Assembly (NCBI GenBank): GCA_024743215.1
Contig: JANSWZ010000001.1
Location: forward strand, 124,001 to 188,000
Reading direction: 5' to 3'
Length of the DNA stretch: 64,000 nucleotides
Origin: Alphaproteobacteria bacterium
GTDB lineage: Bacteria; Pseudomonadota; Alphaproteobacteria; Rhizobiales; GCA-2746425
Part shown: positions 38,579-57,632 of the stretch, piece after piece
Numbering within the stretch: the first letter of the stretch is position 1
Layout: every line of letters begins with the position of its first letter
Notes under the pieces: model-generated
Seen by the model: only the letters and a program-made list of their open reading frames with translations
Database searches by the model: none
Told to the model about the DNA's origin: nothing
Translations under genes and position numbers: made by a program

Positions 38579-39139
38579 ATGAATAGTGATGTTTTGCCGA
38601 TGCGGGACCGAATACTGGACGCCGCAGAAACACGTATGCGGGGAAGAGGGTTTCACAGCGTCAGTTTTCGCGATCTTGCGAATGATGTTGGCGTGAAAAG
38701 CGCGAGCGTTCACTATCACTTCCCGCAGAAATCCGATCTGGGAAATCAGTTGGTAGAGCGCTATTCAGCGCGGTTTCAGGCTGAACTCGATGCTATTGAT
38801 ACGTCAGTTCCGAGCATGGCAATGACCAGGTTTCTGGCCCTTTATGATAACGCGTATTCGGTGGGGAAATCTGTCTGTCTATGCGCAATTCTTAGTGCAG
38901 AGGCCAACAGTTTGCCGGACACATTAAACGCCAGACTTTGTGGGTTCTTTGAGATGAATGTGCGCTGGTTGTCGGCCTTGAATGCGCGACACGGATTGAC
39001 AGACAGAGTGCCTGATCCGCTGGAAATAGTCGGTGCTCTTGAGGGCGCGATGATCGTGGCCAATGCAATGGCGGATCGTGCTGCTCTGATAGCGACAATT
39101 ACGCGGATACAGGCCGCTTATGATCCGGCGGCAGAATAG
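38579..39139 (+). CDS. TetR/AcrR family transcriptional regulator
   Basis: Repressor of 186 aa. The helix-turn-helix is at residues 27-49 (SFRDLANDVGVKSASVHYHF, then PQKSDLG), with an alpha-helical ligand domain behind it. It is divergent from the cupin-SDR-amine oxidase operon and next to an inverted repeat, so it is probably its repressor. The last 41 bases overlap the 3' end of the convergent hisC gene, an unusual arrangement for genes of different function. Confidence 0.9.
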   Translation: MNSDVLPMRDRILDAAETRMRGRGFHSVSFRDLANDVGVKSASVHYHFPQKSDLGNQLVERYSARFQAELDAIDTSVPSMAMTRFLALYDNAYSVGKSVCLCAILSAEANSLPDTLNARLCGFFEMNVRWLSALNARHGLTDRVPDPLEIVGALEGAMIVANAMADRAALIATITRIQAAYDPAAE

Positions 39140-40232
39140 CATCAAGATCGGCCAGAAATTTGGTGTTTTCCTGCTCTGATCCGATAGAAACGCGAATGTA
39201 GGTGTCGTATCCATCCTGTTTCCATGGTTTGACAATTGTTCCGCGTTTCAGGAGGGAGTCCGCGACAGGCATGGATGAGCGATTGACGTCAAAGAAAACG
39301 AAATTCCCAAGCGAGCTGGCTGTCTTGTAGCCCCGGGCGCTCAGTTTCTGCGACATGAGGTCCCGCTGCCGAACGGTTTCGGCTGTGCAGTGTCTCATAT
39401 GGTCATCATTCTGCAGCGCCAATGTTGCCGCCAATTGTGCAACCGCATTGACGTTGAAAGGCGTCCGGGTGAGGTCAAGGGCCTGCCGCAGTTGTTTTGA
39501 TCCACAAATACCGTAGCCAACCCGCAGACCTGCCAGCCCCCAGGCTTTGGAAAATGTCCTGAGAATGATCCAGTTTTGATCATCCGGCATCAGGCAGGTC
39601 AGTCCGGAGACGTAGTCGCCTTTAACGGCGTACTCGTAGTAGGCTTCGTCAAGCACCAGCAATGTGTCTGGATGCTTTGTTTCTATAACCTGTTTGAGCT
39701 GTTGCGGATTGAGCCAAGTGCCCACCGGGTTCATGGGATTTGCGAAAATAAGCATTTTAGCTGGCTTGTTTACCGCTTCCAAAAGCGCGTTCAGATCGGT
39801 TTCCAGCGCATCGGTGAGGCCAATCCGCTCAACTTTTGCGCCCATAAGTGTTGCGTAGTCTTCATGCAAAGGGAATGACGGATAGAGCGTAATAACCCGA
39901 TCTTCTGGCTGAACCACACTGCGGCATATGATGGAAATCAACTCTTCCGATCCGTTTCCGAAAATCAGATTGTCAGCCTCAACATCCAGATAGTCAGACA
40001 GCGTCGTTGCCAATTGTGCTGAATTTGCATCAGGATAGAGAAACAGATCCGAGCTTGCCAGTTTCAGCGCAGCGAGGACCTGCGGGGCGGGCCCGGCTGG
40101 GTTCTCATTCGATGCCAGTTTCGCGATTTCCGTCACACCATATTTCGACTTGACTTCATCAAGGCCCAACCCTGAATTATAGGGGTGAATATGAGCGAGC
40201 GTTGGGCGAAGGATTTTTTCCAGCTGGTTCAT
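39099..40232 (-). CDS. hisC: Histidinol-phosphate aminotransferase family enzyme of the hut supercluster
   Basis: PLP-dependent class I/II aminotransferase of 377 aa. It shows the HisC block LASNENPAGPAP near residue 39-50, NPMNPVGTW near 165, DEAYYEY and the PLP lysine K229 in RTFSKAWGLAGLRVGYG. HisC proteins transfer the amino group of glutamate to imidazoleacetol phosphate and often to imidazolepyruvate or aromatic keto acids. I chose ATG 40232 (TTGAGG before it): the longer ATG 40289 lies within a probable HutC operator. Placed with hut genes it may make histidine from imidazolepyruvate. Confidence 0.86.
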   Translation of the reverse strand: MNQLEKILRPTLAHIHPYNSGLGLDEVKSKYGVTEIAKLASNENPAGPAPQVLAALKLASSDLFLYPDANSAQLATTLSDYLDVEADNLIFGNGSEELISIICRSVVQPEDRVITLYPSFPLHEDYATLMGAKVERIGLTDALETDLNALLEAVNKPAKMLIFANPMNPVGTWLNPQQLKQVIETKHPDTLLVLDEAYYEYAVKGDYVSGLTCLMPDDQNWIILRTFSKAWGLAGLRVGYGICGSKQLRQALDLTRTPFNVNAVAQLAATLALQNDDHMRHCTAETVRQRDLMSQKLSARGYKTASSLGNFVFFDVNRSSMPVADSLLKRGTIVKPWKQDGYDTYIRVSIGSEQENTKFLADLDAILPPDHKRPVSA

Positions 40233-40276
40233 TCGGGCCTCAATATCTGCAATTCTGTTGCGAATGTTGGAATTAT

Positions 40277-40290
40277 TATGTATAGACATA
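40277..40290. promoter_or_regulatory. HutC-type operator a
   Basis: TATGTATAGACATA, one mismatch from the palindrome with core ATGTATATACAT, between the divergent hisC and SDR genes. It is identical over 14 bases to the site before hutF/hutI (52359). Confidence 0.8.
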
Positions 40291-40319
40291 TAAAATGATG
40301 CGCAAGAAGGTTTCTTGAA

Positions 40320-41093
40320 ATGGCACAGTCGATTTTTGATCTTTCAGGCAAGGTGGCGCTGGTTACAGGCGCAAGCCGGGGCCTTGGGCGGTCGATGGCG
40401 GTTGGCCTTGCCGAGGCTGGCGCAAAAATTGTTATTACCTCCAGAAACCTGGCGTCTCTGGAAGAAACAAGCGCAGAGATTGAGCGCATAGGCGGCACTT
40501 TTGTGCCGCTGGTGCTGGATGTCAGTGATGTGCCGGGCATGACAGATCAAATGTCCAACCTGGCAGCGCAGTTACCAGGTGGCCTTGATATTCTCGTCAA
40601 CAATGCGGGCTATGAAGAAGTTTGTCCGTCTCTGGATGTCTCCGAAGATGTTTGGGACAGGGTGGTTGATACCAATTTGAAGGGCGCTTTCTTCTGCGCC
40701 AGAAACGCCGCGCGGATGATGGTCGATACAGGGCGCGGCGGTGCTATCATCAATGTCTGTTCTCTGACGTCCTATGTGGGTGTCCCAACTGCGGTGCCCT
40801 ATGGGTCTTCAAAATCCGGTCTGCTGGGAATGACGCGAGCGCTTTCGACGGAATGGGCGGCAAATCGGATTCGGGTCAACGCTATTGCGCCCGGTTACTT
40901 CCGCACGGAACTGACGGATCAGTTTTATCAGAATGAAGATTGGCAAAACGCCATGCTGGAGAAAATTCCGCTGGGCAGTTTTGGTGATTCAAATGATCTG
41001 AAAGGTGCCGTGGTTTTTCTGGCAAGTGATGCGTCGCATTACATTACGGGCCAATGCATTGGAATTGACGGTGGCTACCTGGCCTCTATCTAG
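40320..41093 (+). CDS. Short-chain dehydrogenase/reductase (FabG-like)
   Basis: Classical SDR of 257 aa. The cofactor motif VTGASRGLGRSMAVGLAEAG is near residue 16, the structural NNAG near 93, the catalytic serine in NVCSLTSYVG and the YxxxK in YGSSKSGLLGMTRAL, with a normal tyrosine. The C-terminus GQCIGIDGGYLASI is typical. These enzymes oxidise or reduce alcohol and keto groups with NAD(P). It lies behind a HutC-type operator, divergent from hisC, so a role on an imidazole alcohol or keto compound is plausible but not proven. Confidence 0.9.
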   Translation: MAQSIFDLSGKVALVTGASRGLGRSMAVGLAEAGAKIVITSRNLASLEETSAEIERIGGTFVPLVLDVSDVPGMTDQMSNLAAQLPGGLDILVNNAGYEEVCPSLDVSEDVWDRVVDTNLKGAFFCARNAARMMVDTGRGGAIINVCSLTSYVGVPTAVPYGSSKSGLLGMTRALSTEWAANRIRVNAIAPGYFRTELTDQFYQNEDWQNAMLEKIPLGSFGDSNDLKGAVVFLASDASHYITGQCIGIDGGYLASI

Positions 41094-41171
41094 AGGCTGG
41101 ACTCGCTTGAGGAGAGAGAAAATATGGAAATAGCCAGTCCTTACTTGACATTTCGGCAAGGCCCGCTTTTC

Positions 41172-41183
41172 ATGTATATACAT
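41172..41183. promoter_or_regulatory. HutC-type operator b
   Basis: Perfect 12-bp palindrome ATGTATATACAT, 60 bases before the GTG of the importer ATPase. A consensus TTGACA box is at 41145-41150, which would place the operator over or just behind the -10 region. Confidence 0.85.
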
Positions 41184-41242: not shown

Positions 41243-42367
41243 GTGAATACTAACGCAATTCCGGCCCAAACTCCGGCGGTCTCAGCTTCCAATGTCGCGA
41301 TGCAGTTTTCTGACTTGATGGCAGTCAAGGATGCAAATTTTGAGTTGGAAAATGGTCGCTTTCTGACGATATTGGGACCGTCAGGGTCCGGCAAAACCAC
41401 GCTGCTGCGTATGATCGCCGGCTTTTTGAAGCCGACACAAGGCCAGATCTTCATAAACGGCAAGGAAGTCAACGCTGTTGCACCCAACAAACGTTCGGTG
41501 GGCATGGTGTTTCAGAAACTTGCGTTGTTTCCACATATGACTGCAGCCCAAAATGTTGCATTTCCACTGAAAATGCGTCGATTTGATGCCAAGAAAATTC
41601 CGGCACGCGTTTTGGAATTTCTGAATTTGGTGCGTTTGGATGGCTTGGAAAACCGGCGTATGAATGAACTCTCCGGTGGGCAGCAACAGCGGGTGGCTAT
41701 TGCGCGTGCATTGGTATTCGAGCCAGACCTTTTGTTGCTGGATGAACCTTTGGCAGCGTTGGATCGCAAGCTGCGCGAGGAAATGCAGCTGGAATTCCGC
41801 CGCATTCAGAAAGAACTTGGTGTCACAACGATCAATGTCACCCATGACCAGCGCGAAGCCTTGGTCGTCTCAGACCAAATTATTGTGATGGACAATGGTG
41901 AAATCCAGCAGGATGCATCACCAACACAGATGTACCGTACCCCGCACAACCCCTTCGTTGCCAACTTCATTGGTGTGACCAACCTTTTCGATGGGAAGCT
42001 GATGTCGGCCAGCGCCGAGGGCGCTGAAGTGCATGTTGGTGATCTGACCCTTTCCGGAATTTTGCGCAGCAGTTCCGATGCCTCGGTATTGGGCTCGCAA
42101 GCACGTTGTGCCGTGCGGGCTGAGCAAATTCGAATTGCTGCGGCACCAGATGCGCTTGGCACGCTGGACCTTACGTTCCAGGGCGTCGTAAAAGACGTAA
42201 TCTTTGAAGGAGAACGGCTGCTCTACGAGCTGTCAGTTCCCGAATTGGGAGATGAACCCGTACGCATTTTTCATCATGATCAAAATGACTTCGCTACTCA
42301 CGATGTTGGAGAGACTGTCCACATCGGGTGGATGAACCGCGACTTACATATTTTTGTCGCATCCTAA
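41243..42367 (+). CDS. ABC transporter ATP-binding protein, PotA type
   Basis: ATPase of 374 aa for a spermidine/putrescine-type importer. Walker A is GPSGSGKTT near residue 50, the signature LSGGQQQRVAIARA near 148, Walker B LLLLDEPLAALD, the switch histidine INVTHDQREALVV, and a C-terminal TOBE domain. The GTG start has a poor ribosome site and overlaps the stop of a 40-codon open frame at 41124-41246 that has a good ribosome site. First certain gene of the eight-gene operon that ends at 50158. Confidence 0.93.
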   Translation: MNTNAIPAQTPAVSASNVAMQFSDLMAVKDANFELENGRFLTILGPSGSGKTTLLRMIAGFLKPTQGQIFINGKEVNAVAPNKRSVGMVFQKLALFPHMTAAQNVAFPLKMRRFDAKKIPARVLEFLNLVRLDGLENRRMNELSGGQQQRVAIARALVFEPDLLLLDEPLAALDRKLREEMQLEFRRIQKELGVTTINVTHDQREALVVSDQIIVMDNGEIQQDASPTQMYRTPHNPFVANFIGVTNLFDGKLMSASAEGAEVHVGDLTLSGILRSSSDASVLGSQARCAVRAEQIRIAAAPDALGTLDLTFQGVVKDVIFEGERLLYELSVPELGDEPVRIFHHDQNDFATHDVGETVHIGWMNRDLHIFVAS

Positions 42368-42415: not shown

Positions 42416-43519
42416 ATGCCCATAGACAAGACATTCAATCGCAGGCAGCTGCTGAAGACCACAGCCACCGTTGGTGCTGCCGGTGTTTTTGTGGCCTCCG
42501 CACCATCTATTCTTCGTGCTGCAGAGCCGGACAAGCCATCTGAAATCATCGTACGTGCATGGGGTGGCCCATGGGTCGAAGCCTTGAAGAATGGTGTTTC
42601 AGATCGCTTCACAGCTGAAACCGGCATTCGGGTTATCCATGATCTGACTGAAGATAATGAAATTCAGCCGAAAGTCTGGGCGGCAGTTGCGCAAGGTCGC
42701 ACACCACCGATCCACATCAATTGGGATACGACAACAAACGCAACAAAATCTGCTTTGCGTGGCGTATGTGAAGATCTGTCGGATCTGTCCAACATTCCCG
42801 GAACTACGGATCTTGCCAAGCCTGTTGGCGTTGATGGCTACCCGATCGTAAACACATATGGCTATGTTTATGTGTTGGCCTATCGTCCATCTGCGTTCCC
42901 CGATGGCCCGCCAAAATCCTATCATGATTTGCTTGATCCAAAGTTCAAGGGTCGTCTGGCTTTCTACAATGATGGCATTGGTTTCCATTTCCCGGCACAG
43001 GTTGCTGGTGGCGGAAGTCTGGATGGTATTCCTGATGCCATGGACCCTGCCTGGGAATTCATCACCAAGATGAAAGATCAAAACCCGCTTCTTGGCGAAG
43101 ATCCCGACTTTGTGACCTGGTTCCAGAATGGTGAAATTGATGCGGCTTGCACCATTTCAACCAATGCTCTGGGCGCTAAGAAGAATGGCGTTGATATTGC
43201 CTGGACAGTGCCGGATGAGGGCGCGAAGTTCGACACTGATGGACTTTGGATTCCAAAAGGTCACTCTGAAGGCGATCTCTACTGGTCCAAAGCCTATATC
43301 AACAGCGCTCTGACCAAAGAATCACAGCAAATCTGGCTGGATGGTCTTGGTCTCCCTGGTGTTGTGCCAGGCCTGACACCTCCTCCTGGCATGGCGGGCG
43401 ATCCTGCTTATCCGACAAAGCCTGAAGACTTTGAGCGTCTCATTCGCATCTCCGGCCAGATTCAGGTCGAAAATGAGAGCGATTGGTTCTCCAAATTCAA
43501 AACCATCATGCAGGGCTAA
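42416..43519 (+). CDS. ABC transporter substrate-binding protein, PotD-like, Tat-exported
   Basis: Periplasmic binding protein of 367 aa. The N-terminus has a twin-arginine signal (FNRRQLLKTTATVGAAG) ending near ILRAAEP, so the protein is probably folded before export. The mature part has the PotD/PotF-type start EIIVRAWGGPWVEALKNGV. Members bind polyamines, amino-acid derivatives or other small cations. The hut context suggests an imidazole compound as ligand, which is inference. Confidence 0.9.
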   Translation: MPIDKTFNRRQLLKTTATVGAAGVFVASAPSILRAAEPDKPSEIIVRAWGGPWVEALKNGVSDRFTAETGIRVIHDLTEDNEIQPKVWAAVAQGRTPPIHINWDTTTNATKSALRGVCEDLSDLSNIPGTTDLAKPVGVDGYPIVNTYGYVYVLAYRPSAFPDGPPKSYHDLLDPKFKGRLAFYNDGIGFHFPAQVAGGGSLDGIPDAMDPAWEFITKMKDQNPLLGEDPDFVTWFQNGEIDAACTISTNALGAKKNGVDIAWTVPDEGAKFDTDGLWIPKGHSEGDLYWSKAYINSALTKESQQIWLDGLGLPGVVPGLTPPPGMAGDPAYPTKPEDFERLIRISGQIQVENESDWFSKFKTIMQG

Positions 43520-43592: not shown

Positions 43593-44537
43593 ATGCAACG
43601 TAGTCCTTCCTCATATCCAATTATATGGCGCGTCATGGATGTCCTGGAGACAACCTTTGCGGCCGTATGGCCAAAAGGCGGCGGCAAGTTCACGCCATAT
43701 CTGATGCTGACGCCAGCGATTGTGCTCGTGGGAACACTGGTGGTTGGACTGCTTTACATCGGGGATTCTTCGCTGCGGGTTCTGGACAGGTCCACATTTC
43801 TGTTTTCCGATTACTGGACCCTTGATAATTATATACGGGCACTGTCCGAACCGTTTATTTTCACGGTGGTCTGGCGCAGTTTGCTGGGCGCGGTGATCGT
43901 CACAATCGTGACGCTTATGCTGGCCTTTCCCTATGCTTACATCATGGTCCGTACACCCAGTTCATTTGTGCGCAAATTCCTTCTCATTGCACTGTTTCTG
44001 CCATTTTTTATCGGGCAGGTTGTCCGCGCCTATGGATGGCTTATCATCCTGGGCAATCAGGGCATCGTGAACGATGTTTTGGGGCTCGTTGGCGTTGAAC
44101 CGTTGCGCCTTCTGTTCAACTATCCGGCAGTTCTGTTTGGCCTTGTGCAGTACATGCTGCCCTTTGGGGTGCTTATGCTGGCACCGGCATTGACGGCCAT
44201 TCCCGAGGAGATTGAAGCGGCATCCGGTTCGCTGGGTGCAAGCTGGGTCAAGACGATGACCCATATCGTTCTGCCAATGGCAAAGCCCGGTCTGATTGGC
44301 GCGGGTCTCGTGGTTTTGACATTGTCTTTGACCGACTTTGCCATGCCGGCCATTCTGGGTGGCGGCACGCAGGATTTCATTGCCAATGCCATTTATGACC
44401 AGTTCTTCCGCACGTCTGATCAGGGGTTCGGCTCGACACTCGCTCTGCTGCTGATCGCGCTTGGGTCCATATTGGTTGGAATCATATTCGCCGTCTTTGG
44501 TGCCGGAACGCTGGCACTGGATGGGTCGCGAAAATGA
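43593..44537 (+). CDS. ABC transporter permease, PotB type
   Basis: Inner-membrane permease of 314 aa with six predicted spans. The first is near residues 40-65 (TPAIVLVGTLVVGLLYIG) and the EAA loop near 205 reads IPEEIEAASGSLGASWVK. ATG 43593 gives a reasonable cytoplasmic N-terminus; ATG 43635 is a shorter alternative, and the upstream extension inside the preceding gene is rejected. It overlaps the next permease by four bases (ATGA). Confidence 0.9.
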   Translation: MQRSPSSYPIIWRVMDVLETTFAAVWPKGGGKFTPYLMLTPAIVLVGTLVVGLLYIGDSSLRVLDRSTFLFSDYWTLDNYIRALSEPFIFTVVWRSLLGAVIVTIVTLMLAFPYAYIMVRTPSSFVRKFLLIALFLPFFIGQVVRAYGWLIILGNQGIVNDVLGLVGVEPLRLLFNYPAVLFGLVQYMLPFGVLMLAPALTAIPEEIEAASGSLGASWVKTMTHIVLPMAKPGLIGAGLVVLTLSLTDFAMPAILGGGTQDFIANAIYDQFFRTSDQGFGSTLALLLIALGSILVGIIFAVFGAGTLALDGSRK

Positions 44538-45334
44538 ACCGGTCCCGTTCTCAGCAAATCGTTTATTGGTCGCTGGTCATTCTGACATTGCTGACCTTGT
44601 CGGCACCCACTTTTGTTGTCCTGGGAGCTTCCTTCACATCCGGAAACATCATTCAGTTTCCACCGGATGGGTTTTCTCTCAAATGGTACGCGGCGATCAT
44701 TGGCGAGCAGAACCTTCGAGATGCGTTTGGGCGGTCTTTGATCGTCGCCATTATTTGCGTGCTTGTGTCATTGCCCACCGGGACATTGGCTGGCATCGCT
44801 CTGTCAAAGTTCCGCATCAGGGGCGCGAATGCCATTCAGGTCTATCTGCTGCTGCCTTTCACCATTCCGCTGATCGGATCCGGCATTGGTCTGATGCTGG
44901 CCTTTGGTGATGCTGGCCTTCTGGGCAATTTATGGCCCATCGGAATTGCGACCGCCGTTATCAATCTGCCCTTTATGATCTGGGCTGTGTCGTCCAGTGC
45001 CGTTGGTCTTGACCCGGATCTGGAACTGGCGGCTCAGAGTTGTGGGGCAGGGCCGGTGCAGACATTTTTCTCCGTAACGCTGCCGGCTGTGGTGCCGGGT
45101 GTGATTACCGGTTCGCTGTTGATGTTCATTCTATCGTTGAATGAGTTTCTGGTCAGCCTCTTGCTGGTTGACGCACGGATCGTGACGCTGCCGGTTCAGA
45201 TATACAATTCCATACGCTCCATCATCACGCCGGACCTGGCTGCCGTATCCGTGGTGTTCATTGTCGTCGCGATGCTTGCCATTGCCGCACTCGACAAGCT
45301 TGTGGGCCTGGAAATTTTCTTGAAATCCAAATAA
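44534..45334 (+). CDS. ABC transporter permease, PotC type
   Basis: Second permease of 266 aa, a normal PotC length, with six spans and EAA loop DLELAAQSCGAGPVQTFF near residues 157-174. ATGA overlap with the preceding permease shows translational coupling. It completes the four-component importer of the hut supercluster. Confidence 0.92.
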   Translation: MNRSRSQQIVYWSLVILTLLTLSAPTFVVLGASFTSGNIIQFPPDGFSLKWYAAIIGEQNLRDAFGRSLIVAIICVLVSLPTGTLAGIALSKFRIRGANAIQVYLLLPFTIPLIGSGIGLMLAFGDAGLLGNLWPIGIATAVINLPFMIWAVSSSAVGLDPDLELAAQSCGAGPVQTFFSVTLPAVVPGVITGSLLMFILSLNEFLVSLLLVDARIVTLPVQIYNSIRSIITPDLAAVSVVFIVVAMLAIAALDKLVGLEIFLKSK

Positions 45335-45370: not shown

Positions 45371-46699
45371 ATGTCATCTGTATCTTTTTACGAAACCGCA
45401 AATCTGAATTCTGAAACCTATAAAAACCTGCTGAAGCGATCAGAATCCGACCTGTCTGTTTTCATGGAGAAGGTGGAGCCGATTATTGAAGCGGTGAGAA
45501 CAGAAGGCGATGCTGCGCTTGTCCGCTACGGACGGGAGTTTGATGGGGCCAAGCCGTTAACGGAAGCCACGCTGAAAGTCAGCGAAGCTGAGTTTGATGC
45601 AGCATTTGATGCGGTTGATGCCGAGGTCATTGAGGCCATCGAATATGGAATTTCAAATATCAGATCATTCCACGAAGAGCAGAAGCCTGAACCGATGTGG
45701 TTCAAGGAAATTCGCCCTGGTGCATTTGCCGGTGATCGCTATACGCCCATTCAATCCGTCGCGCTCTATGTGCCACGTGGCAAAGGTGCATTTCCCTCTG
45801 TAACGATGATGACATCCGTACCCGCCGTTGTGGCGCAGGTGCCTGAGTTGGCTATTTTCACACCACCAACGCCTGATGGATCTGTTGATGCCGCAACATT
45901 GGTCGCGGCACGCATTGCCGGGGTTGAAACCGTCTATAAATGTGGTGGCGCTCAAGCGGTAGCTGCAGCGGCATTTGGAACGCAAACGATCAAGCCAGCG
46001 CTCAAGATTGTGGGGCCGGGAAGTCCTTGGGTCGTGGCCGCGAAACGACGTCTGTCTGATATGATTGACCCCGGTCTTCCGGCAGGTCCGTCTGAAGCGA
46101 TAATCTTTGCCGATGAGAGCGTGCATGGTGGGTTGGCTGCATTGGATTTGCTGGTGGAAGCTGAACATGGGCCGGACAGTTCCGCGTTTCTCGTTACGCA
46201 CTCACGGCGGGTTGCAGAAGAAGCCCTGGCGGCACTTCCTGATCATTGGGCCAAGATGACCGAGCAGCGTGTGGAATTTTCCAAAGCTGTGCTGTGCGGG
46301 GAAAATGGCGGTATCGTCCTCACGTCTTCGTTGGAAGAGAGTTACACATTTATCAATGATTATGCGCCGGAGCATCTTGAGTTGCTGTCCTCAGAGCCGT
46401 TCGAACATTTGGGACATATCACTGAGGCCGCCGAGATTTTGATGGGGCCGCATACACCGGTTTCCATTGGCAATTTCGCGCTTGGGCCGAATGCTGTTCT
46501 GCCGACAAGCCAAGGTGCGCGGACTTATGGCCCGCTGTCCGTACATGATTTCGTCAAATGCTCATCCATTGGTTATGTCACCCGACCTGCCTATGCCGAG
46601 ATGGCTAAACATGCGCGGGTTCTGGCGCGCTATGAAGGCTTTTCCTCACACGAAAATGCGGTTTCTGACATGCGCCAGAAATATCTGGGCAATCGCTGA
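45371..46699 (+). CDS. Histidinol dehydrogenase paralogue with altered active site
   Basis: NAD-dependent dehydrogenase fold of 442 aa, collinear with HisD over its whole length. The general catalytic pair is kept as E334-H335 (YAPEHLEL), and zinc ligands H266 and H427 are kept. But the zinc-ligand glutamine is glutamate (E263 in LVEAEHG), the zinc-ligand aspartate is asparagine (N368 in IGNFALG), and the substrate-binding histidine of TNHVLPT is alanine (A375). It is therefore unlikely to be the biosynthetic HisD. Its place between an importer and hut genes suggests oxidation of a different alcohol to a carboxylate. Confidence 0.88.
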   Translation: MSSVSFYETANLNSETYKNLLKRSESDLSVFMEKVEPIIEAVRTEGDAALVRYGREFDGAKPLTEATLKVSEAEFDAAFDAVDAEVIEAIEYGISNIRSFHEEQKPEPMWFKEIRPGAFAGDRYTPIQSVALYVPRGKGAFPSVTMMTSVPAVVAQVPELAIFTPPTPDGSVDAATLVAARIAGVETVYKCGGAQAVAAAAFGTQTIKPALKIVGPGSPWVVAAKRRLSDMIDPGLPAGPSEAIIFADESVHGGLAALDLLVEAEHGPDSSAFLVTHSRRVAEEALAALPDHWAKMTEQRVEFSKAVLCGENGGIVLTSSLEESYTFINDYAPEHLELLSSEPFEHLGHITEAAEILMGPHTPVSIGNFALGPNAVLPTSQGARTYGPLSVHDFVKCSSIGYVTRPAYAEMAKHARVLARYEGFSSHENAVSDMRQKYLGNR

Positions 46700-46700: not shown

Positions 46701-47711
46701 ATGAAGGCTGTGCGACTGCATGACACGCTGGATTTACGTTGTGAAGACGTCGCGAAGGCTCCTGATCCTGCTCCAGATGAGGTGCGTGTTCAGGTGGCCT
46801 ATGCGGGCATTTGTGGCTCTGACATCCACAACTTCAAAACCGGACAGTGGATCAGCAGAAAACCATCCATTGCGGGGCACGAATTCTCCGGATTTGTCGA
46901 AGCTGTCGGAGCAAATGTCGTTGGCCTGGAAATTGGCGATAAGGTTGCGGCAGACTCACGCTATTATTGCAGTGATTGTGCAAACTGCCGATTAGGCAAG
47001 GTTCATCTATGCGAAAGCCTGGGCTTCGTCGGTGAAGCAATTGATGGCGGGTTTGCCGATTTTATAACTGTTCCTGCAAAGCTGTGCATCAAATGCAAAC
47101 CAGATGCTGCGCTTCATATCGCCGCTTTGGCCGAACCATTGGCGGTTGCACTTCATGCCTTGAACCTGTTGAACATCCCCAATGATGAGCCATTGCTGAT
47201 TATCGGATGTGGTCCAATAGGAGCACTAAGCGCTCTTGCCTCGACCTGCAGGTCCAATCGCGCGCTGTTCATCTGCGACGTGAATGCTATCAGAGCTGAG
47301 CGTTGTGCAGAATTATCCGGTGCAGCCATTGTTGATCTGGCGAGTTTTTCGCAATCTGACAGCGCTGAAAAGCCTGTCAGGTATGTTCTGGATACGACGG
47401 GCAATATCGGCGTCATCGATATGTTGCTGCAAAAAATGTCCGGCTGCACCATCGGTCTTGTCGGCATTGGATCGGGTGAATTGACCATCGATCCGGTTCA
47501 TCTGGTGGAGCGCGAAATTTCAATTGTCGGCTGTCACGCATTTGCAGATGAATTGCCCGAAGCGGTTGCGTTGCTGCATGACAAGGCTGATCGATTTGAA
47601 GGTGTAATCGGTGACCGGATTACGCTGGAACAGACTACCGCAGCCTATGGCGTGATTGCGTCTGGAACATCACCGGCGATCAAGACATTGATTGAGGTGT
47701 CTGGTGAGTGA
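46701..47711 (+). CDS. Zinc-dependent medium-chain alcohol dehydrogenase
   Basis: MDR dehydrogenase of 336 aa of the sorbitol/threonine dehydrogenase type. Catalytic zinc ligands are C38 (GICGSDIH) and H60-E61 (AGHEFSG); the structural zinc site C90, C93, C96, C104 is complete. The NAD site is LLIIGCGPIGALSALA near residue 155-170. ATG 46701 starts one base after the preceding stop. Together with the HisD-like protein it can oxidise an alcohol, possibly the imported imidazole compound. Confidence 0.9.
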   Translation: MKAVRLHDTLDLRCEDVAKAPDPAPDEVRVQVAYAGICGSDIHNFKTGQWISRKPSIAGHEFSGFVEAVGANVVGLEIGDKVAADSRYYCSDCANCRLGKVHLCESLGFVGEAIDGGFADFITVPAKLCIKCKPDAALHIAALAEPLAVALHALNLLNIPNDEPLLIIGCGPIGALSALASTCRSNRALFICDVNAIRAERCAELSGAAIVDLASFSQSDSAEKPVRYVLDTTGNIGVIDMLLQKMSGCTIGLVGIGSGELTIDPVHLVEREISIVGCHAFADELPEAVALLHDKADRFEGVIGDRITLEQTTAAYGVIASGTSPAIKTLIEVSGE

Positions 47712-49006: not shown

Positions 49007-50158
49007 TTGAAGCAAGTGGTCAATATTGAAGATTTGAGGGTATTGGCGCAGCGACGGCTGCCTAAAATCTTCTTTGATTACATTGATGGCGGCGCTTTTT
49101 CGGAGACAACGGCCGGGCGTAATCGGGCTGGTTTTTCCAATTGGTGCCTTACCCAACGCGTTCTGAAGCAGAAGGAGATGCCTGATCTGAGCTGTTACTA
49201 TCTTGGGTCGCAGCATGCGCTTCCCTTTATGCTGGGACCGGTTGGTTTTTTGGGCCTGTATCGGGGCCAAGGTGAAGTTCTTGCGGCACAGGCGGCAAAG
49301 GCAAAAGGCATTCCTATGTGCCTGTCGACCTTCTCAATTGGCAGTATAGGGACACTTCGCAAGGACGTTGGCGGTGATCTACAGTTCCAGCTTTACATGG
49401 ATCGCGACAAATCATTCGTCGAAGATTTGCTGCAATCTGCTGTCGATGCCGACATTGATGTCCTTTACCTGACCGTAGATACCTCGGTTACATCAGTGCG
49501 GGAGAAGGATGTCCGGAACGGTTTTCGGGCCGTCACCAAAGTTACACCGGCACTCGCATTTTCCATGATGCAGCGTCCGGCCTGGTGTCTGGACATTCTG
49601 CGTGCAGGATCACCCAATGTGGAAGCTGTGGCGGACTATCCGGAATTTGGCAAAGGTGCGCTGGAACAGGCGTCTAACCTGTCTGGTCGGCTGGACGCTT
49701 CGCTGACCTGGAATGATGTCAAATGGCTGCGCAGCAAATGGAAGAAACGGCTGGTGGTGAAAGGCATTCTTTCCGCTGAGGATGCCAAAATTGCCAGAGA
49801 TTGCGGTGCAGATGCTGTTGTGATTTCAAATCATGGTGGCCGCCAACTGGATTTTGCTAGTTCCACAATTTCGGTTCTGCCATCCGTTCGGGAAGCGGTG
49901 GGGCCTGATTTCTGTGTTTTGATTGATGGTGGCTTCCGCCGTGGCAGTGAAATTGCCATTGCGCTTGCTTTGGGCGCAAGCGGTGTGCTGCTGGGGCGTG
50001 CCTATGCGTTTGGACTGGCGGCTGGCGGGCGTGCAGGTGTTGAAAAGGCAATTGATATTCTGTCCGTCGAGCTGTCCATTACGCTTAAACTGATGGGGCT
50101 GTCCGGCGTGAAGGAATTGCAGTCCAATGGCACTGATTGTATCAGCCGGTTGGGGTGA
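49007..50158 (+). CDS. FMN-dependent 2-hydroxyacid oxidase/dehydrogenase (LldD family)
   Basis: TIM-barrel flavoenzyme of 383 aa that oxidises the alpha-hydroxyl of an L-2-hydroxyacid. The N-terminus is normal from the TTG 49007 (VVNIEDLRVLAQRRLPK, then FFDYIDGGA). The catalytic histidine block is ISNHGGRQLDFASS near 275, and the FMN-binding GASGVLLGRAYAFGLAAGG near 320. GTG 49016 is an alternative. The family takes lactate, glycolate or mandelate; in a hut cluster imidazole-lactate is an attractive substrate, giving imidazolepyruvate for HisC. Last gene of the importer operon; it overlaps the convergent hutC end by 17 bases. Confidence 0.87.
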   Translation: MKQVVNIEDLRVLAQRRLPKIFFDYIDGGAFSETTAGRNRAGFSNWCLTQRVLKQKEMPDLSCYYLGSQHALPFMLGPVGFLGLYRGQGEVLAAQAAKAKGIPMCLSTFSIGSIGTLRKDVGGDLQFQLYMDRDKSFVEDLLQSAVDADIDVLYLTVDTSVTSVREKDVRNGFRAVTKVTPALAFSMMQRPAWCLDILRAGSPNVEAVADYPEFGKGALEQASNLSGRLDASLTWNDVKWLRSKWKKRLVVKGILSAEDAKIARDCGADAVVISNHGGRQLDFASSTISVLPSVREAVGPDFCVLIDGGFRRGSEIAIALALGASGVLLGRAYAFGLAAGGRAGVEKAIDILSVELSITLKLMGLSGVKELQSNGTDCISRLG

Positions 50159-50903
50159 AACTGGCAAACATTCGATGCTGGTCACCCGGATATGAGAGCT
50201 TTGCCCAAGTGACATAACCCTTTTCGTTTTGCGTGGTCCGTTCGACGACGAGGCAGGCATCACCCATTGCGATCTGTAATGATTTGGCGACGTCATCTGA
50301 GGCGGAGACCGCCATGATCTGATGTTCAGCTGAATTCCAAGGAACCTTTTTTAGCAGCCAGTTTCCTGGAGCTTCTTCAGTAAAATCCACCTGCCGTATT
50401 TCCGGAACCGCTTCCATGTTGATGATGCGTTCTTCCAGACAGAACGGGGCACCGTTTGCGGAATGAAGGCACGTGATTTCACGCACCTGATCCAATTCCT
50501 GGAATCCAAAACGGGTTTGTTCGTCTGCTTTCAAAACCCGGACTTTATCGCCCAGAAGCATGTAGGAATAGGTCTTGCCGGATTGTTCCACTTCCGCGCG
50601 GATGCTTGTAATCTGCAATGCTGCTGACAAGGATTGCGGGGCTTTGACAAAGGTGCCGGATTTGCGATTTCTGACCAGAAGCCCGGATTGGGTCAGTTGG
50701 GTCAAAACCTTGTTGACGGTCATGCGCGAGCAGCCATATTCCCGTGCCATCTCGGTTTCGAAGGGAATGCGAAAGCCGGGAGGCCATCTGCCAGAAATGA
50801 TGTTGTCCTGAACTTCTTCCAGAATCCGCAAATGCAGTGATCTGGGCTCGTCTTTGCCAGATTCTTTGCCAGATGCTTCAGGGACTTTCGGGGCAGCTCT
50901 CAT
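50142..50903 (-). CDS. hutC: Histidine utilisation repressor HutC (GntR/HutC family)
   Basis: Repressor of 253 aa. The GntR winged helix is at about residues 25-90 (EMAREYGCSRMTVNKVLTQL), and the C-terminal UTRA domain senses urocanate. HutC marks are LLKKVPWNSAEHQI near 184 and ACLVVERTTQ near 218. A palindrome (50909-50920) six bases before the start implies autorepression. Three further copies stand before the hisC/SDR, importer and hutF/hutI promoters, so it probably controls the whole cluster. Confidence 0.93.
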   Translation of the reverse strand: MRAAPKVPEASGKESGKDEPRSLHLRILEEVQDNIISGRWPPGFRIPFETEMAREYGCSRMTVNKVLTQLTQSGLLVRNRKSGTFVKAPQSLSAALQITSIRAEVEQSGKTYSYMLLGDKVRVLKADEQTRFGFQELDQVREITCLHSANGAPFCLEERIINMEAVPEIRQVDFTEEAPGNWLLKKVPWNSAEHQIMAVSASDDVAKSLQIAMGDACLVVERTTQNEKGYVTWAKLSYPGDQHRMFASFTPTG

Positions 50904-50908: not shown

Positions 50909-50920
50909 AAGTATATACAT
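50909..50920. promoter_or_regulatory. HutC-type operator c
   Basis: AAGTATATACAT, one mismatch from ATGTATATACAT, six bases upstream of the hutC start codon. Occupancy would block both transcription and the ribosome site, fitting autoregulation. Confidence 0.75.
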
Positions 50921-50976: not shown

Positions 50977-52347
50977 TTAAGTAGAATTCAGTGCGCCAGT
51001 CAGATCGCGCATCGTGTTGCGGTAATCCGCCAGGATTTTGTTGCGTTCAATGTGTCTGCCGTCCCGAACCATGTGCCGCCCGGCAGACCACAGATCGGTC
51101 ACGACACTGCCATCTGCCGTAAAGCAAAATCCGTCAAACAATTGTTCTGGAGTAAGGGCACACAGATATTGGTTTGTGCTGTCTATCGCGACAAGATCTG
51201 CCAGGAATCCTGGTTCAATCCTGCCTGCGTTTCGGTTGATGGCTTGAGCACTACCAGTTGCTGCGCTGAGATAGAGGTTTTGTCCGACGGATCCTGATTT
51301 TGTCACCAATATGTTGCGGTTCAAGTCGCGCATACGTTGACTGTACTCCAATGTGCGCAGTTCTTCCGCCACAGAAATGCGGATATCTGAATCCGATCCA
51401 ATGCCAAATGTTCCGCCTGCCTCAATGAATGTGGCTCCATTGAACGTTCCATCACCCAGATTGGCTTCTGTTATCGGGCAAAGACCCACAACGGCCCCAG
51501 ATTGGGCAAGGGCTTTGGTTTCCGCGTCGGTCATGTGGGTTGCGTGAATGAGACACCAGTTCGGCGTTACATCATGATGCGCTAATAACCATTCTACGGG
51601 CCGTTGTCCCAGCCAATGAGTGACTTCAAGTACCTCCTTCGGCTGTTCGGAAATGTGCATGTGGATTGGCCCATTGTCATGTCGCAATATGAGTTCGCCC
51701 AATTCCTCGGGGGAGGTTGCACGTAGTGAATGGGGCGCAATGCCAAGCTGGTAATCTGCCGGTGTATCGCTCATCGCCAGTTCAATTTCTTCCAGTAACA
51801 GGGAGAACTCGTCGACAGAATTGCCAAAACGCTTCTGACCTCCTGCCAGCGGTGCTTTCTCTACGCCGCCATAGGTATACAGCACCGGCAGATGTGTAAG
51901 TCCGATACCGGTTTTCAACGCTGCCGCCAGAATGCGCGCTGATAGTTCTGAGCGATTGTCATAGAATTGCCCGCCGGGCTGGTGATGCACATAGTGAAAC
52001 TCTCCGACCGATCCATATCCAGCTTCCTGCATTTCCATGAAAACCAGGGCCGCGATGGCTTCTATCTGCTCTGGAGTCAGGTGATCCAGAAACTTGTACA
52101 TCAAGGTTCGCCATGTCCAGAAACTGTCTCGGCCAGCAGCACGATATTCAGTCATTCCGGCCATGGCGCGTTGAAAGCTGTGGCTGTGCAAATTCGCCTG
52201 CGCTGGCAGAAGCGTATCGACCCGAATGTCAGTTGGATCAGCGCTTACTGATCTCTCAATCTCGGTGATTTCGCCGTCATCAATCGTGACGCGCACATTT
52301 TCAATCCAGTTGGTTGAGAGCCAGGCACGATTTGAAAAAATTCTCAT
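50977..52347 (-). CDS. hutF: Formimidoylglutamate deiminase HutF
   Basis: Amidohydrolase-fold enzyme of 456 aa that hydrolyses N-formimidoyl-L-glutamate to N-formyl-L-glutamate and ammonia. Metal and substrate motifs are NLHSHSFQRAMAGMTE near residue 60, MHISEQPKEV near 230, IHATHMTDAE near 260 and IGSDSDIRISVAEELRTLEY near 315. I chose ATG 52347 (AAGGA before it); ATG 52371 lies within the operator. It feeds HutG in the five-step route. Upstream of hutC on the same strand. Confidence 0.95.
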   Translation of the reverse strand: MRIFSNRAWLSTNWIENVRVTIDDGEITEIERSVSADPTDIRVDTLLPAQANLHSHSFQRAMAGMTEYRAAGRDSFWTWRTLMYKFLDHLTPEQIEAIAALVFMEMQEAGYGSVGEFHYVHHQPGGQFYDNRSELSARILAAALKTGIGLTHLPVLYTYGGVEKAPLAGGQKRFGNSVDEFSLLLEEIELAMSDTPADYQLGIAPHSLRATSPEELGELILRHDNGPIHMHISEQPKEVLEVTHWLGQRPVEWLLAHHDVTPNWCLIHATHMTDAETKALAQSGAVVGLCPITEANLGDGTFNGATFIEAGGTFGIGSDSDIRISVAEELRTLEYSQRMRDLNRNILVTKSGSVGQNLYLSAATGSAQAINRNAGRIEPGFLADLVAIDSTNQYLCALTPEQLFDGFCFTADGSVVTDLWSAGRHMVRDGRHIERNKILADYRNTMRDLTGALNST

Positions 52348-52358
52348 CTGACATTCCT

Positions 52359-52372
52359 TATGTATAGACATA
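52359..52372. promoter_or_regulatory. HutC-type operator d
   Basis: TATGTATAGACATA, identical to the site at 40277, in the divergent hutF/hutI gap. It probably represses both operons. Confidence 0.8.
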
Positions 52373-52423: not shown

Positions 52424-53641
52424 ATGACCCACGATCCTTATGTCCTGACCTGTCGATCAGCCGCAACGATGAGCCCTGAGAGCGGCGAAGCGTATGGTTT
52501 GCTGGAAAGTGCCGCCATTGCCGTTGCGGATGGAGTGATCGTTTGGGTGGGCCCAGAGGCAGATTTGCCCCCCAGCTTTTCGGACTATTCCAGACATGAA
52601 TTCGGTCAAAATCTGGTGACGCCGTCGCTGATCGATTGCCATACGCATGTTGTGCATGGTGGCAACCGCGCACATGAGTTTGAAATGCGTCTGAACGGTG
52701 CGTCTTATGAGGAAGTTGCAAGGGCAGGTGGGGGCATTGTCTCGACTGTGCGCTCCACCCGGACCGCCAGCGAAGTGGATTTGCTGGCCGATGCGCTGCC
52801 GCGCATTGATGCGATGATTGCAGAGGGTGTCAGCCTGATTGAAATTAAGTCGGGTTATGGGCTTGATCAATTAACCGAGTTGAAAATGCTGAGGGTGGCA
52901 CGGCGTATTGCCACGCTGCGACCCATCCGCATTCAAACCACGTTTTTGGGCGCACATGCGGTTCCGCCGGAGTATCGCGGCAAGCCAGATGCTTACATTG
53001 GTGATGTGTGCATTCCAACACTGCGTCTGGCCCATGCTGAAGGTCTGGTGGATGCGGTGGATGGCTTTTGCGAAGGTATTGGTTTCACACCCGACCAGAT
53101 TGCACGCGTCTTTGATGCAGCGCGAGCACTTGGTCTGCCGATAAAACTTCATGCTGAACAGTTGTCGAATTTGGGCGGGGCGAAGCTCGCGGCCTCCTAT
53201 GAAGCTCTATCGGCTGATCATCTGGAGTATCTGGATGAAGCTGGGGTGGCTGCGATGGCGCGCAGCGGCACCGTCGCGGTGTTGTTGCCGGGCGCGTTCT
53301 ACACACTTCGCGAAACCCAAATGCCGCCTGTATCACTGATGCGCAAACATGGTGTGACCATGGCTGTGGCGACTGACTGCAACCCCGGTTCGTCGCCGAT
53401 TTCATCGCTGCTCCTATCCATGAATATGGCCTGCACCTTATTTCGATTGACGCCTGAAGAAGCCCTGGCGGGCGCAACGCGCAATGCCGCGTCGGCTTTG
53501 GGTCTTTCTGATACCGGAACAATTGCAGTTGGGCAGCGCGCCGATTTTGCGATCTGGAATGTCGAGCATCCTGCCGAGTTGTCCTATCGAATCGGTTTCA
53601 ACGCGCTGGAAAAGCGCATTTATGGAGGCGCGTTTGACTGA
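52424..53641 (+). CDS. hutI: Imidazolonepropionase HutI
   Basis: Amidohydrolase of 405 aa that opens the ring of imidazolone-5-propanoate to N-formimidoyl-L-glutamate, third step of histidine breakdown. Motifs are [20 protein letters not shown] near residue 70, [13 protein letters not shown] near 170, [15 protein letters not shown] near 240 and [10 protein letters not shown] near 315. First gene of hutI-hutH-hutG-hutU; the stop overlaps the hutH start. Confidence 0.96.
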
Positions 53642-55172
53642 GTTGGTTCTGACCCCCGGCCAGGTATCACTAAGTGAATTGGGCGATGTTTATTGGCAAG
53701 GTGCGTGCGTAAAGCTGGATCGCGTTTGCAGGAACGCGGTTGAGAACGCGGCCCTGCGCATATGTGCTGCCGCGCAGAGTGACGTTCCGATTTATGGTGT
53801 AAACACCGGCTTTGGAAAGCTCGCCAGTATCAAAATTGTTTCGGAAGATGCGGCCATTCTGCAGCGCAATCTCATTTTGAGCCATTGCTGCGGCGTTGGC
53901 GAATCTATCCCGCGTCACATGGTTCGGCTCATGATGTCTTTGAAGCTGCTGTCCTTTGGACGCGGTGCCTCTGGCGTCAGGTGGGATTGCGTTGACCTGC
54001 TGGAACAGATGCTGGCGCGGGGCGTAACGCCAGTCATCCCGGCACAGGGTTCAGTTGGAGCTTCCGGCGACCTGGCTCCGCTGGCGCATATGACTGCCGT
54101 GGTGATTGGTGAGGGCCGGGCGGAGTATGAGGGCACAGTGATGTCCGGAGCTGAGGCCCTGGAGAAAGCCGGCCTGTCGCCGGTAGTTCTTGGCCCCAAG
54201 GAAGGTCTGGCCTTTATCAACGGAACCCAGTTTTCAACAGCGTTTGCTCTGGCTGGCCTGTTCGAAGCATGGCGGGCTGCTCAGAACGCCCTTGTGACCT
54301 CGGCCATGTCTACGGATGCCATTATGGGTTCTACTGCGCCCACTCAGCCTGAAATACACGCTTTGCGGGGCCATCGTGGCCAGATAGAAGCCGCGGCCTC
54401 TATTCGCGCATTGTTGGACGGCTCCATCATTCGTGAAAGCCATATTGAGGGTGATACAAGGGTGCAGGACCCGTATTGCATCCGCTGTCAGCCTCAGGTG
54501 ACGGGCGCTGCGATGGATGTGTTGCGCCAAGCTGCCATGACGCTTGAGATTGAAGCGAATGCGGCGACCGATAATCCACTGGTTTTGACGGAGCCTGAAA
54601 TCATTGTTTCAGGCGGCAATTTTCATGCTGAGCCGGTTGGCTTTGCAGCTGACATGATTGCCTTGGCCGTTGCCGAAATCGGAGCTATTGCGCAACGCCG
54701 TATCGCGCTGATGGTCGATCCTGCGCTGAACCATGATTTGCCGCCTTTTCTGACCCCCAATCCGGGTTTGAATTCGGGGCTAATGATCGCCGAGGTGACA
54801 ACAGCAGCCTTGATGAGTGAGAATAAACATCTGGCCAATCCGTGTGTGACCGACAGCACGCCGACCAGCGCCAATCAGGAAGATCATGTGTCCATGGCAG
54901 CCCATGGTGCGCGTCGTCTGCTGCGAATGACGGCCAATCTGAACCATATTTTGGGTGTGGAATTGCTGTGTGCGGCACAGGGGATTGAGTTTCGTACGCC
55001 GCTGGCGACCAGCAAACCGCTGCAAAATGTTCTGGCACGACTGCGTGAAGACGTAGCGACAATCGGCGACGATCGCTATATGGCACCTGACTTGGAGGCC
55101 GCCTGTCGGTTGGTCTCTTCGCTGGAAATTGTACAGGCCTCCGGAACTGACTTGCCGGAGTTGGCGGCATGA
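53634..55172 (+). CDS. hutH: Histidine ammonia-lyase HutH
   Basis: MIO enzyme of 512 aa that converts histidine to trans-urocanate and ammonia. The prosthetic group arises from A143-S144-G145 ([15 protein letters not shown]), and catalytic tyrosine Y54 lies in [12 protein letters not shown]. The TTG at 53634 has GGAGG six bases before it and gives a normal N-terminus; ATG 53622 is an alternative. It overlaps hutI by eight bases and hutG by four. Confidence 0.96.
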
Positions 55173-55969
55173 ACCCGGTTCACGTGGAGCAGGGCACCAG
55201 CCCGGTTGTTCTCGGCCAGCCCCATGGTGGCACGCATGTGCCAGAGGAATTCGGCGCCCGGTTGAATGAGCGGGGCAAAGGTCTTGCTGATACGGATTGG
55301 CATATTGCTCGATTATATGATGGCTTGCTGCTGGGCCAGACAGTCGTGAGCGCGTCGTTTCATCGCTATGTCATTGATGCCAATCGTGATCCGGAGGGGC
55401 ATTCGCTTTACCCCGGGCAGAATACGACCGGCCTTTGTCCCACTACAGATTTTGATGGAAACCCAATCTGGCTGGACGGTGAAGAGCCCTCAGAAAGTGA
55501 ATGTGAGCAGCGTCGACTGAGCTTTCATAAACCTTATCATGACGCACTGAGCGCTGAGATTGCGCGTGTAAAAGCCATTCATGGCTACGCCATTCTTTAT
55601 GATTGTCACTCCATTCGTTCGCATATTCCCTTTCTGTTTGATGGCACGCTGCCGGTGTTCAGCATTGGCACAAATGGTGGTGTGACGTGTGCACGTTCAA
55701 TTGAATCCGCCACGGTTGATATCTGCAAGAATGCAGTGGGTTACGATCATGTGGTCAATGGGCGTTTCAAGGGTGGATGGACGACCCGTCACTATGGTCA
55801 GCCGGAAACCGGCGTGCATGCCATCCAGATGGAATTGGCGCAGCGCGCCTATATGGATGAGGCGGTGCCTTGGGCCTATCGGCCTGATCTTGCAGCGCAG
55901 CTGCGTCCTTATCTGACCCAGATTTTGACGGCCCTCGGGCAAGACATACAGGAATACAAAGATGAATGA
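55169..55969 (+). CDS. hutG: N-formylglutamate deformylase HutG
   Basis: Zinc hydrolase of 266 aa that cleaves N-formylglutamate to glutamate and formate, the last step. Motifs are [15 protein letters not shown] near residue 14, [13 protein letters not shown] near 42, [17 protein letters not shown] near 137 and [15 protein letters not shown] near 218. The ATG overlaps the hutH stop. Presence of HutF plus HutG shows the five-step rather than the formamide-releasing four-step route. Confidence 0.95.
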
Positions 55970-57632
55970 CCCTCGTAAAAATTCTCGTGACGTCTATCCG
56001 CCCACTGGCACGGAGTTGAATGCCAAAAGCTGGCTGACCGAAGCGCCTTTGCGGATGCTGATGAACAATCTGCATCCAGATGTCGCCGAGAACCCGCACG
56101 AATTGGTTGTCTATGGCGGCATTGGTCGTGCTGCACGGACATGGCATGATTTCGACCAGATTGTTGCCAGTCTGAAAGACCTTGAGGACGATGAAACCCT
56201 GATGGTTCAGTCAGGAAAGCCGGTTGGTGTTTTCAAAACGCACAAGGATGCGCCGCGTGTCCTGATTGCCAACTCCAATCTGGTTCCCCATTGGGCGACC
56301 TGGGATCATTTCAGCGAGTTGGATAAAAAGGGCCTGGCGATGTATGGCCAGATGACGGCCGGCTCGTGGATTTACATCGGAACACAGGGCATTGTTCAGG
56401 GCACCTATGAAACCTTTGTTGAGGCGGGTCGCCAGCATTACGGTGGGTCTCTTACGGGTAAATGGATACTGACGGGCGGTCTTGGCGGCATGGGCGGCGC
56501 GCAGCCGCTTGCAGCCGTAATGGCAGGGGCTTGTTGCCTTGCGGTGGAATGCGATGAAACCCGCGCAGATTTTCGTCTTCGCACACGCTATGTCGATGAA
56601 AAAACCAGTTCTTTGGACGAGGCACTGGCCATGATTGAAGGCTGGACGAAAGCCGGTGAGGCAAAATCTGTTGCCCTGATTGGCAATGCAGCTGATGTGT
56701 TTCCGGAACTGGTGAAACGCGGTGTTCATCCGGATATCGTGACCGACCAGACAAGTGCGCATGATCCGGTTCATGGCTATTTGCCACAAGGTTGGAGCGT
56801 GGCAGAATGGCAGGAGAAGCAGGAAAGCGATCCGAAGGCAGTTGAGAAAGCTGCCCGTGCTTCCATGAAAGTGCAGGTAGCTGCCATGGTTGATTTCTGG
56901 AACATGGGTGTCCCGACCCTTGATTATGGCAATAATATCCGTCAGGTGGCCAAGGATGAAGGTCTGGAAAATGCCTTTGCATTTCCAGGGTTTGTACCAG
57001 CTTACATTCGACCTTTATTTTGTCGGGGCATCGGCCCGTTCCGCTGGTGCGCGCTGTCGGGTGATCCGGAAGATATCTACAAGACCGACGCCAAGGTGAA
57101 GGAACTTATTCAAGACGAGCATCTGCATAATTGGCTTGATATGGCACGCGAACGCATCGCGTTTCAGGGCCTGCCAGCCCGCATTTGCTGGGTCGGGCTC
57201 GGGGTGCGGGACAAGCTTGGTCTGGCCTTCAATGAAATGGTCCGAAATGGTGAATTATCTGCGCCCGTTGTGATTGGACGAGACCATCTGGATTCGGGTT
57301 CTGTTGCTTCGCCAAACCGCGAAACCGAGGCCATGAAGGATGGGTCTGATGCTGTGTCAGACTGGCCTCTTTTAAATGCGTTGTTGAACACGGCCAGCGG
57401 CGCGACATGGGTGTCTTTGCACCATGGTGGTGGTGTTGGCATGGGCTTCTCCCAGCATTCGGGCATGGTGATCTGTTGTGACGGGACGAAAGAGGCAGAC
57501 CAGCGGATTAAGCGCGTTTTGTGGAATGACCCTGCTACCGGCGTGATGCGTCATGCCGATGCGGGCTATGAAGACGCTATTGAGTGGGCACAGGAAAACA
57601 ACCTTCGGCTTCCTGGAATTCTGGGCAATTGA
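55962..57632 (+). CDS. hutU: Urocanate hydratase HutU
   Basis: NAD-containing enzyme of 556 aa, normal length, that hydrates urocanate to imidazolonepropionate, the second step. Conserved blocks are [14 protein letters not shown] near residue 24, [17 protein letters not shown] near 168, [14 protein letters not shown] near 263 and [10 protein letters not shown] near 360. It overlaps hutG by eight bases and ends the operon. Confidence 0.97.

Follow-up and report, generated by a model that had tools for sequence, protein, structure and literature searches.

Gene content of the locus

The 64,000-nucleotide stretch of DNA analyzed here, which we refer to as the window, comes from a member of the Alphaproteobacteria (order Rhizobiales; assembly GCA_024743215.1, contig JANSWZ010000001.1, positions 124,001 to 188,000). 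Between its positions 39099 and 57632, genes for histidine utilization (hut) lie side by side with genes for an importer, several oxidoreductases, an aminotransferase and a kinase. This gene content had been described in an original prediction made from the letters of the DNA, and our analysis confirmed it. To our knowledge, the standard Hut system needs no HisD, kinase, short-chain dehydrogenase/reductase (SDR) or alcohol dehydrogenase (ADH), and the present work is concerned with these additional genes.

The hut genes themselves comprise, on the reverse strand, hutC for the repressor (50142..50903; TIGR02018, 275.8 bits, cut-off 220) and hutF for formimidoylglutamate deiminase (50977..52371), and, on the forward strand, hutI for imidazolonepropionase (52424..53641), hutH for histidine ammonia-lyase (53622..55172, start approximate), hutG for N-formylglutamate deformylase (55169..55969) and hutU for urocanate hydratase (55962..57632). 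All six score above the respective curated cut-offs.

The additional genes begin with hisC2 on the reverse strand (39099..40289; translation possibly begins some 57 bases downstream of the annotated start), which encodes a HisC-family aminotransferase scoring above the cut-off of TIGR01141 (299 versus 276.55 bits) and below that of PRK05166 (505.8 versus 540). The others are encoded on the forward strand. They are sdr (40320..41093), for an SDR oxidoreductase of the same kind as HpsO; four genes for an ATP-binding cassette (ABC) importer, consisting of a PotA-like ATPase (41243..42367), a PotD-like substrate-binding protein (42416..43519; SBP_bac_8, 147 bits), a PotB-like permease (43593..44537, start approximate) and a PotC-like permease (44534..45334); hisD2 (45371..46699), for a HisD-family dehydrogenase with an RGKG loop and altered metal ligands; adh (46701..47711), for a zinc-dependent ADH of the same kind as HpsP; a gene for a kinase with the APH fold (47704..48999, start approximate); and lldD (49016..50158, start approximate), for a flavin mononucleotide-dependent α-hydroxyacid oxidase or dehydrogenase of the LldD family, which scores below the cut-offs for L-lactate dehydrogenases (NF008398, 330.5 versus 376 bits; NF033901, 279 versus 550 bits).

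For two of these components, we looked for hints to the substrate. The importer does not reach the cut-offs for PotABCD polyamine transporters (PotA-like, 350 versus 355.6 bits; PotD-like, 23.8 versus 582), and on these PotA and PotD scores only, plain polyamine import was set aside. The AlphaFold2 model of the binding protein was poor (mean predicted local distance difference test score 67.9), and its alignment to PotD yielded no firm pocket assignment. The kinase has no match in Pfam-A up to an E-value of 10 and none in NCBIfam, and its fold was recognized by structure comparison. It shares this fold and the catalytic motifs with small-molecule kinases such as PsiK and methylthioribose kinase, but is only 8% identical in the aligned structures; these structural neighbors give its fold, not its substrate.

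A conserved module in related genomes

A pattern scan of named genomes returned 252 relatives. We retrieved the best 80 of them; after removal of 19 loci with cut flanks, 61 full-flank loci remained, in which the presence of genes was set by the identity thresholds of our scripts. In addition, we sampled genomes of the order (n=297), the class (n=385) and the phylum (n=398), and found the kinase in 18, 10 and 7 of these, respectively, totals that include the window's own genome.

These comparisons establish the additional genes as a conserved module of SDR, ABC importer, HisD2, zinc-dependent ADH and APH-fold kinase. An aminotransferase is often part of it, an LldD-type oxidase sometimes. The genes are arranged as hisD2-adh-(regulator)-kinase in 59 of the 61 loci, and the kinase is the most constant partner of HisD2. 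Counted by gene, sdr is present in 60 loci, hisD2 in 60, adh in 59, hisC2 in 37, potD in 28 and lldD in 16. An importer of the SsuABC/NMT1 type is found 3' of the kinase gene in about 40 of 92 loci. The module is carried by Sinorhizobium meliloti 1021, and on plasmids of Klebsiella and Pantoea, hisD2, kinase, adh and sdr are found together with ABC genes. An α-hydroxyacid oxidase is encoded in addition in the Klebsiella cluster, and an aromatic aminotransferase in that of Rhizobium leguminosarum.

Some module copies have genes for amide hydrolases as neighbors. A protein of about 700 residues with a DMFA2_C domain, resembling N,N-dimethylformamidase, adjoins the module in nine of 105 loci (L060, at 14223-16322, L040, L049, L078, L087, L097, L108, L116 and L120), a nitrilase-like protein does so in three of 92 loci, and an amidase in genome G303. 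Such neighbors are a hint at an amide as the natural nutrient in some cases.

HutC-type operators at module and hut promoters

The window contains a HutC-type operator, ATGTATAKACAT, 5' of the operons of additional genes as well as of hutF and hutI. Individual sites lie between hisC2 and sdr (ATGTATAGACAT, 40278..40289), before potA (ATGTATATACAT, 41172..41183), between hutC and hutF (AAGTATATACAT, 50909..50920) and in the divergent promoter region of hutF and hutI (ATGTATAGACAT, 52360..52371). With at most one mismatch, TGTATATACA occurs four times in the 64 kb, where 0.27 occurrences are expected, and each time at a module or hut promoter. The operator fits NyGTMTAKACNy, the consensus given for the HutC subfamily (PMC4494728).

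The same placement recurs among the named relatives. There, the operator lies 5' of sdr in 49 of 69 cases, of potA in 26 of 36, of hisD2 genes without pot genes in 22 of 35 and of the kinase gene in 19 of 76; for 160 control palindromes of like composition, the motif among them, the corresponding means are 1.0, 0.5, 0.5 and 0.4. It is never found 5' of the operon-internal genes adh (0/73), potB (0/38) and potC (0/39). At least one module gene is preceded by the operator in 59 of the 61 full-flank loci, and the same holds for 14 of 17 further loci from the sampled genomes of the order. The Pantoea operon has it 5' of its first gene. In one strain each of S. meliloti and R. leguminosarum, where hut and module are located on separate plasmid records, hutI is likewise preceded by this operator. 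Furthermore, a gene of the HutC family lies within the module operon in 41 of the 61 loci, and the three in-operon regulators tested all score above the HutC cut-off.

The operator 10-mer is not enriched genome-wide over its reversed control; the evidence lies in the placement of the sites. Nine other genomic regions with the operator were read, and no further regulon member was found in them; L184 and L186 share common genes around an operator copy, but the site lies inside a gene. Concerning the mode of action, urocanate is described as releasing the hut operators from HutC in Pseudomonas putida, while the HutC sites of P. aeruginosa are said to bear little likeness to the consensus (PMC12772324).

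Published expression data on S. meliloti also touch on this module, whose genes we matched to SMa names by gene kinds and by the position of the hisD2 site reported in PMC12542648. In a table for a tolC mutant, hisC3, hisD2, the importer genes SMa0391-0396 and the GntR gene SMa0402 are down 8.3 to 23.5 fold, and hutU, glnK, ntrBC and nitrate genes appear alongside them (PMC2912261). SMa0392 is moreover reported to be repressed by AbcR small RNAs (PMC8844928).

Taken together, the window shares hut genes, repressor and operator type with known HutC-controlled Hut systems, and the regulon is likely a common one. The tie of the additional genes to histidine use is mainly regulatory, with their membership in the HutC regulon predicted from the operator sites.

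Physical linkage to hut genes

Physical linkage between module and hut genes does exist, but it is not a general feature. In 11 of the 61 loci, the module has hut enzyme genes at a distance of at most 10 kb; these loci belong to the Rhizobiaceae (3/29), Devosiaceae (1/1), Aurantimonadaceae (1/1), Pleomorphomonadaceae (3/3), Roseobacteraceae (1/1) and to relatives without a family name (2/6); no such case was found in the Phyllobacteriaceae (0/17), Paracoccaceae (0/2) and Methylobacteriaceae (0/1). Among 21 module-bearing sampled genomes, judged by eye, 13 are linked: in eight, hutU lies on the contig of the module at a distance of no more than 25 kb, and in five, hutI, hutH or hutG adjoins the module and hutU is located elsewhere. 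The remaining eight are without linkage, and in one of them (G145) the region is broken by contig ends.

Two side observations concern hutU and its surroundings. In the window, hutU is followed by a gene for a small glyoxalase-family protein (57669-58070), found after hutU in locus L033 as well, and by genes for a tripartite ATP-independent periplasmic (TRAP)-type transporter (58477-61621). A scan for hutU, which was given 50 of 65 full or nearly full loci and covered 49 module-bearing genomes, was kept out of the linkage counts because its contig numbers could not be assigned to loci; it detected a second HutU homolog of about 47-50% identity in 26 of them; as NCBIfam holds models for thiourocanate hydratase, this homolog might take part in ergothioneine degradation.

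HisD2 forms a clade of its own

HisD2 passes the histidinol dehydrogenase model TIGR00069 (427.7 bits, cut-off 243.8) and scores nearer to HisD than to HpsN (248 versus 182 bits). With canonical HisD it shares the family, the catalytic Glu-His pair and the overall score, but it differs in its loop and its metal site. The loop motif is described as GSAPL in HisD and GRYA/SH in HpsN, and the zinc ligands of HisD as Gln, His, Asp and His (PMC11382572). All 92 module copies of HisD2, among which several genomes are represented twice, have the loop PRGKG[AS]F, and none has the HpsN motif (G-R-Y-A/S-H). The ligand Gln is replaced by Glu in all 92 rows, and in the 82 rows shown for the third motif, the ligand Asp is replaced by Asn and a nearby His by Ala; HisD2 was also aligned to solved HisDs, with the same differences at the metal site. 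In a tree of 55 picked rows, two of which (L161 and L162) stood out as long branches, 37 HisD2-type sequences fall on one branch with full support in the Shimodaira-Hasegawa-like approximate likelihood ratio test (100), apart from canonical HisD (10 rows), HpsN-like proteins (3) and a fourth type (5). By motifs and tree position, HisD2 is thus neither a canonical HisD nor an HpsN, but a member of its own clade.

The nearest described counterpart of the module is the pathway for 2,3-dihydroxypropane-1-sulfonate (DHPS), in which the SDR HpsO, the zinc enzyme HpsP and the HisD-like HpsN oxidize the DHPS enantiomers (PMC11131964) and are accompanied by an importer and a regulator (PMC11131964, PMC11382572). 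Given this identical trio of enzyme kinds, the cluster might be a DHPS pathway placed beside hut by chance. Unlike the HpsO/HpsP/HpsN system, however, the module includes a kinase, a HutC-type operator and, in many loci, an aminotransferase or LldD-type oxidase; the His motif that binds the sulfonate is missing from its HisD2, which belongs to a different clade. We consider this explanation highly improbable and rejected it, since the HpsN motif is absent from HisD2 and a separate HpsN-like set exists elsewhere in the same genome. The window's genome has one HisD homolog of each type, including a canonical HisD. Its HpsN-like dehydrogenase (GGRYSH) is encoded with an SDR, a zinc-dependent ADH and a TRAP-type gene (L143, C1:68000-86963) in what is probably a DHPS catabolism cluster, and its fourth-type homolog (GGKFPM loop) lies next to SDR and ABC genes (L144, C12:976500-996000).

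In some genomes, HisD2-type enzymes are the only HisDs. The genomes G878 and G776, each about 2 Mb in size, encode HisD2 together with the kinase and have no other module genes nearby; their sole HisDs are of the RGKG type, and we found in them neither hutU, at an E-value of 1e-30, nor another HisD-family gene. In the portion of G878 covered by our reading (87%), there are hisH, hisA, hisF, hisI and a weak match to hisE and none of the hut genes searched for, and tblastn detected neither hisG nor hisB. Likewise, three genomes of genus g127 (G303, G938 and G1008) have only HisD-family genes of the RGKG type, and no canonical HisD was found in them. In G303, hisG is present and no HisD was found near it; the second HisD-family gene of this genome adjoins genes for phosphoglucomutase and phosphoglucose isomerase rather than his genes. 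The small genomes and this genus, with their RGKG-type HisDs only, suggest that HisD2-type enzymes can make histidine.

A proposed peripheral pathway into histidine utilization

We propose that the module constitutes a HutC-controlled peripheral pathway, which imports an imidazole-bearing alcohol and oxidizes it to histidine for degradation to glutamate by the adjacent Hut enzymes, and assign this interpretation a probability of roughly 55%. The importer would bring in a histidinol-like amino alcohol, a diol or a triol; the SDR and the zinc-dependent ADH may oxidize its stereoisomers, in analogy to HpsO and HpsP, and HisD2 could carry out the four-electron step from alcohol to acid. Where present, the LldD-type oxidase and the aminotransferase would convert a 2-hydroxyacid product to the amino acid. 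The role of the kinase is a guess: it might phosphorylate the imported alcohol, for example to turn imidazoleacetol into a HisC substrate, or a hydroxyl group that must leave. Finally, urocanate made by HutH from the resulting histidine would lift HutC repression of module and hut genes alike. We found no description in the literature of a pathway with this gene set; the supplementary regulon tables of PMC4494728 lay outside that search and may hold such a prediction.

Within this proposal, two more specific routes can be drawn. The first, a strict analogy to DHPS oxidation, does without phosphorylation: SDR, ADH and HisD2 would convert an imidazolyl-propanediol to imidazole-lactate, the LldD-type oxidase would form imidazolepyruvate, HisC2 histidine, and the kinase would be accessory. 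The dehydrogenases are of the same three kinds as HpsO, HpsP and HpsN, and the window's cluster has both LldD and aminotransferase, with counterparts in the α-hydroxyacid oxidase of the Klebsiella cluster and the aromatic aminotransferase of the R. leguminosarum cluster. The original prediction had already suggested the steps from imidazole-lactate via imidazolepyruvate to histidine. This route is possible, but it leaves idle the kinase, which in two distant genomes stays with HisD2 when other module genes are absent nearby, and calls for an oxidase encoded in just 16 of the 61 loci. The second route employs the kinase: an imidazole diol would be oxidized by SDR and ADH to imidazoleacetol, phosphorylated to imidazoleacetol phosphate, transaminated by HisC2 to histidinol phosphate, dephosphorylated by a housekeeping phosphatase and oxidized by HisD2 to histidine. 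It accords with a HisC and a HisD that both exceed their family cut-offs and with genomes that have only HisD2-type HisDs; yet no phosphatase was found in the window's module, LldD would have no role, and the metal site of HisD2 differs from that of canonical HisD, so that we regard this route as unlikely.

Several observations weigh against the proposed pathway as a whole. In 50 of the 61 loci, no hut enzyme gene lies within 10 kb of the module, and in eight further genomes of the class, hutU was never found within 25 kb of the kinase gene (0/8), two of them having no hutU at all. The operator is missing from two of the 61 full-flank loci (L053 and L126), from three of the 17 further loci of the order and from six of the seven loci in distant class members, and there is none near the Klebsiella and Phyllobacterium operons. 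Since the HutC-subfamily regulators have one common consensus (PMC4494728), the site could also be used by a different member of this subfamily. The altered metal ligands of HisD2 argue against plain histidinol as the substrate, and the presence of HisD2 and kinase, with HisD2 as the only HisD, in two small genomes without hutU indicates that the pair is not always catabolic.

Alternatively, the module could serve an unrelated nitrogen compound, such as a diol, an amide or a polyamine-like cation, its HutC-type control being part of a shared nitrogen-scavenging program. The distance of the hut enzymes in most relatives would fit this view, as would the two small genomes, which have the HisD2-kinase pair and neither operator nor hutU, the amide hydrolases near some module copies and the nitrogen-control signature in the tolC mutant table (PMC2912261). 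It appears doubtful, however, given the operators at both module and hut promoters in many genomes, the joining of hut and module in several families and the closer similarity of HisD2 to HisD than to HpsN.

The original prediction held that the additional genes feed an imidazole compound towards histidine, and it had named their location mostly away from hut genes in related genomes as evidence to the contrary. Such a location is indeed what the 50 loci show, but for the window's wider kin, and for these only, we weigh the operator at 59 of the 61 loci above the missing linkage. For them, the prediction is supported by the shared operators, the HutC-family regulator within the operon, the recurrent linkage to hut and the HisD-like scores of HisD2; it loses ground in distant relatives, where linkage and operator fade.

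Going beyond the HutC-controlled pathway, HisD2 and the kinase might represent a third kind of HisD system, dedicated to the phosphorylation-dependent formation of histidine from an imidazole alcohol. This system would, for the majority of carriers, be fed by the importer and have its product burned by Hut; in the small genomes without hutU and in the genus without canonical HisD, it would supply histidine instead. We offer this as a speculation that is improbable at present.

If the proposed pathway is correct, one of the oldest known catabolic regulons would gain an uncharacterized nutrient route, and rhizobia, roseobacters and some plasmid-bearing enterobacteria would truly use an imidazole alcohol as a source of nitrogen. 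The analysis also draws attention to a kinase family without any model and to a subfamily of HisD whose members current models label histidinol dehydrogenase in spite of their different metal site. As S. meliloti 1021 carries the module, the question is directly testable.

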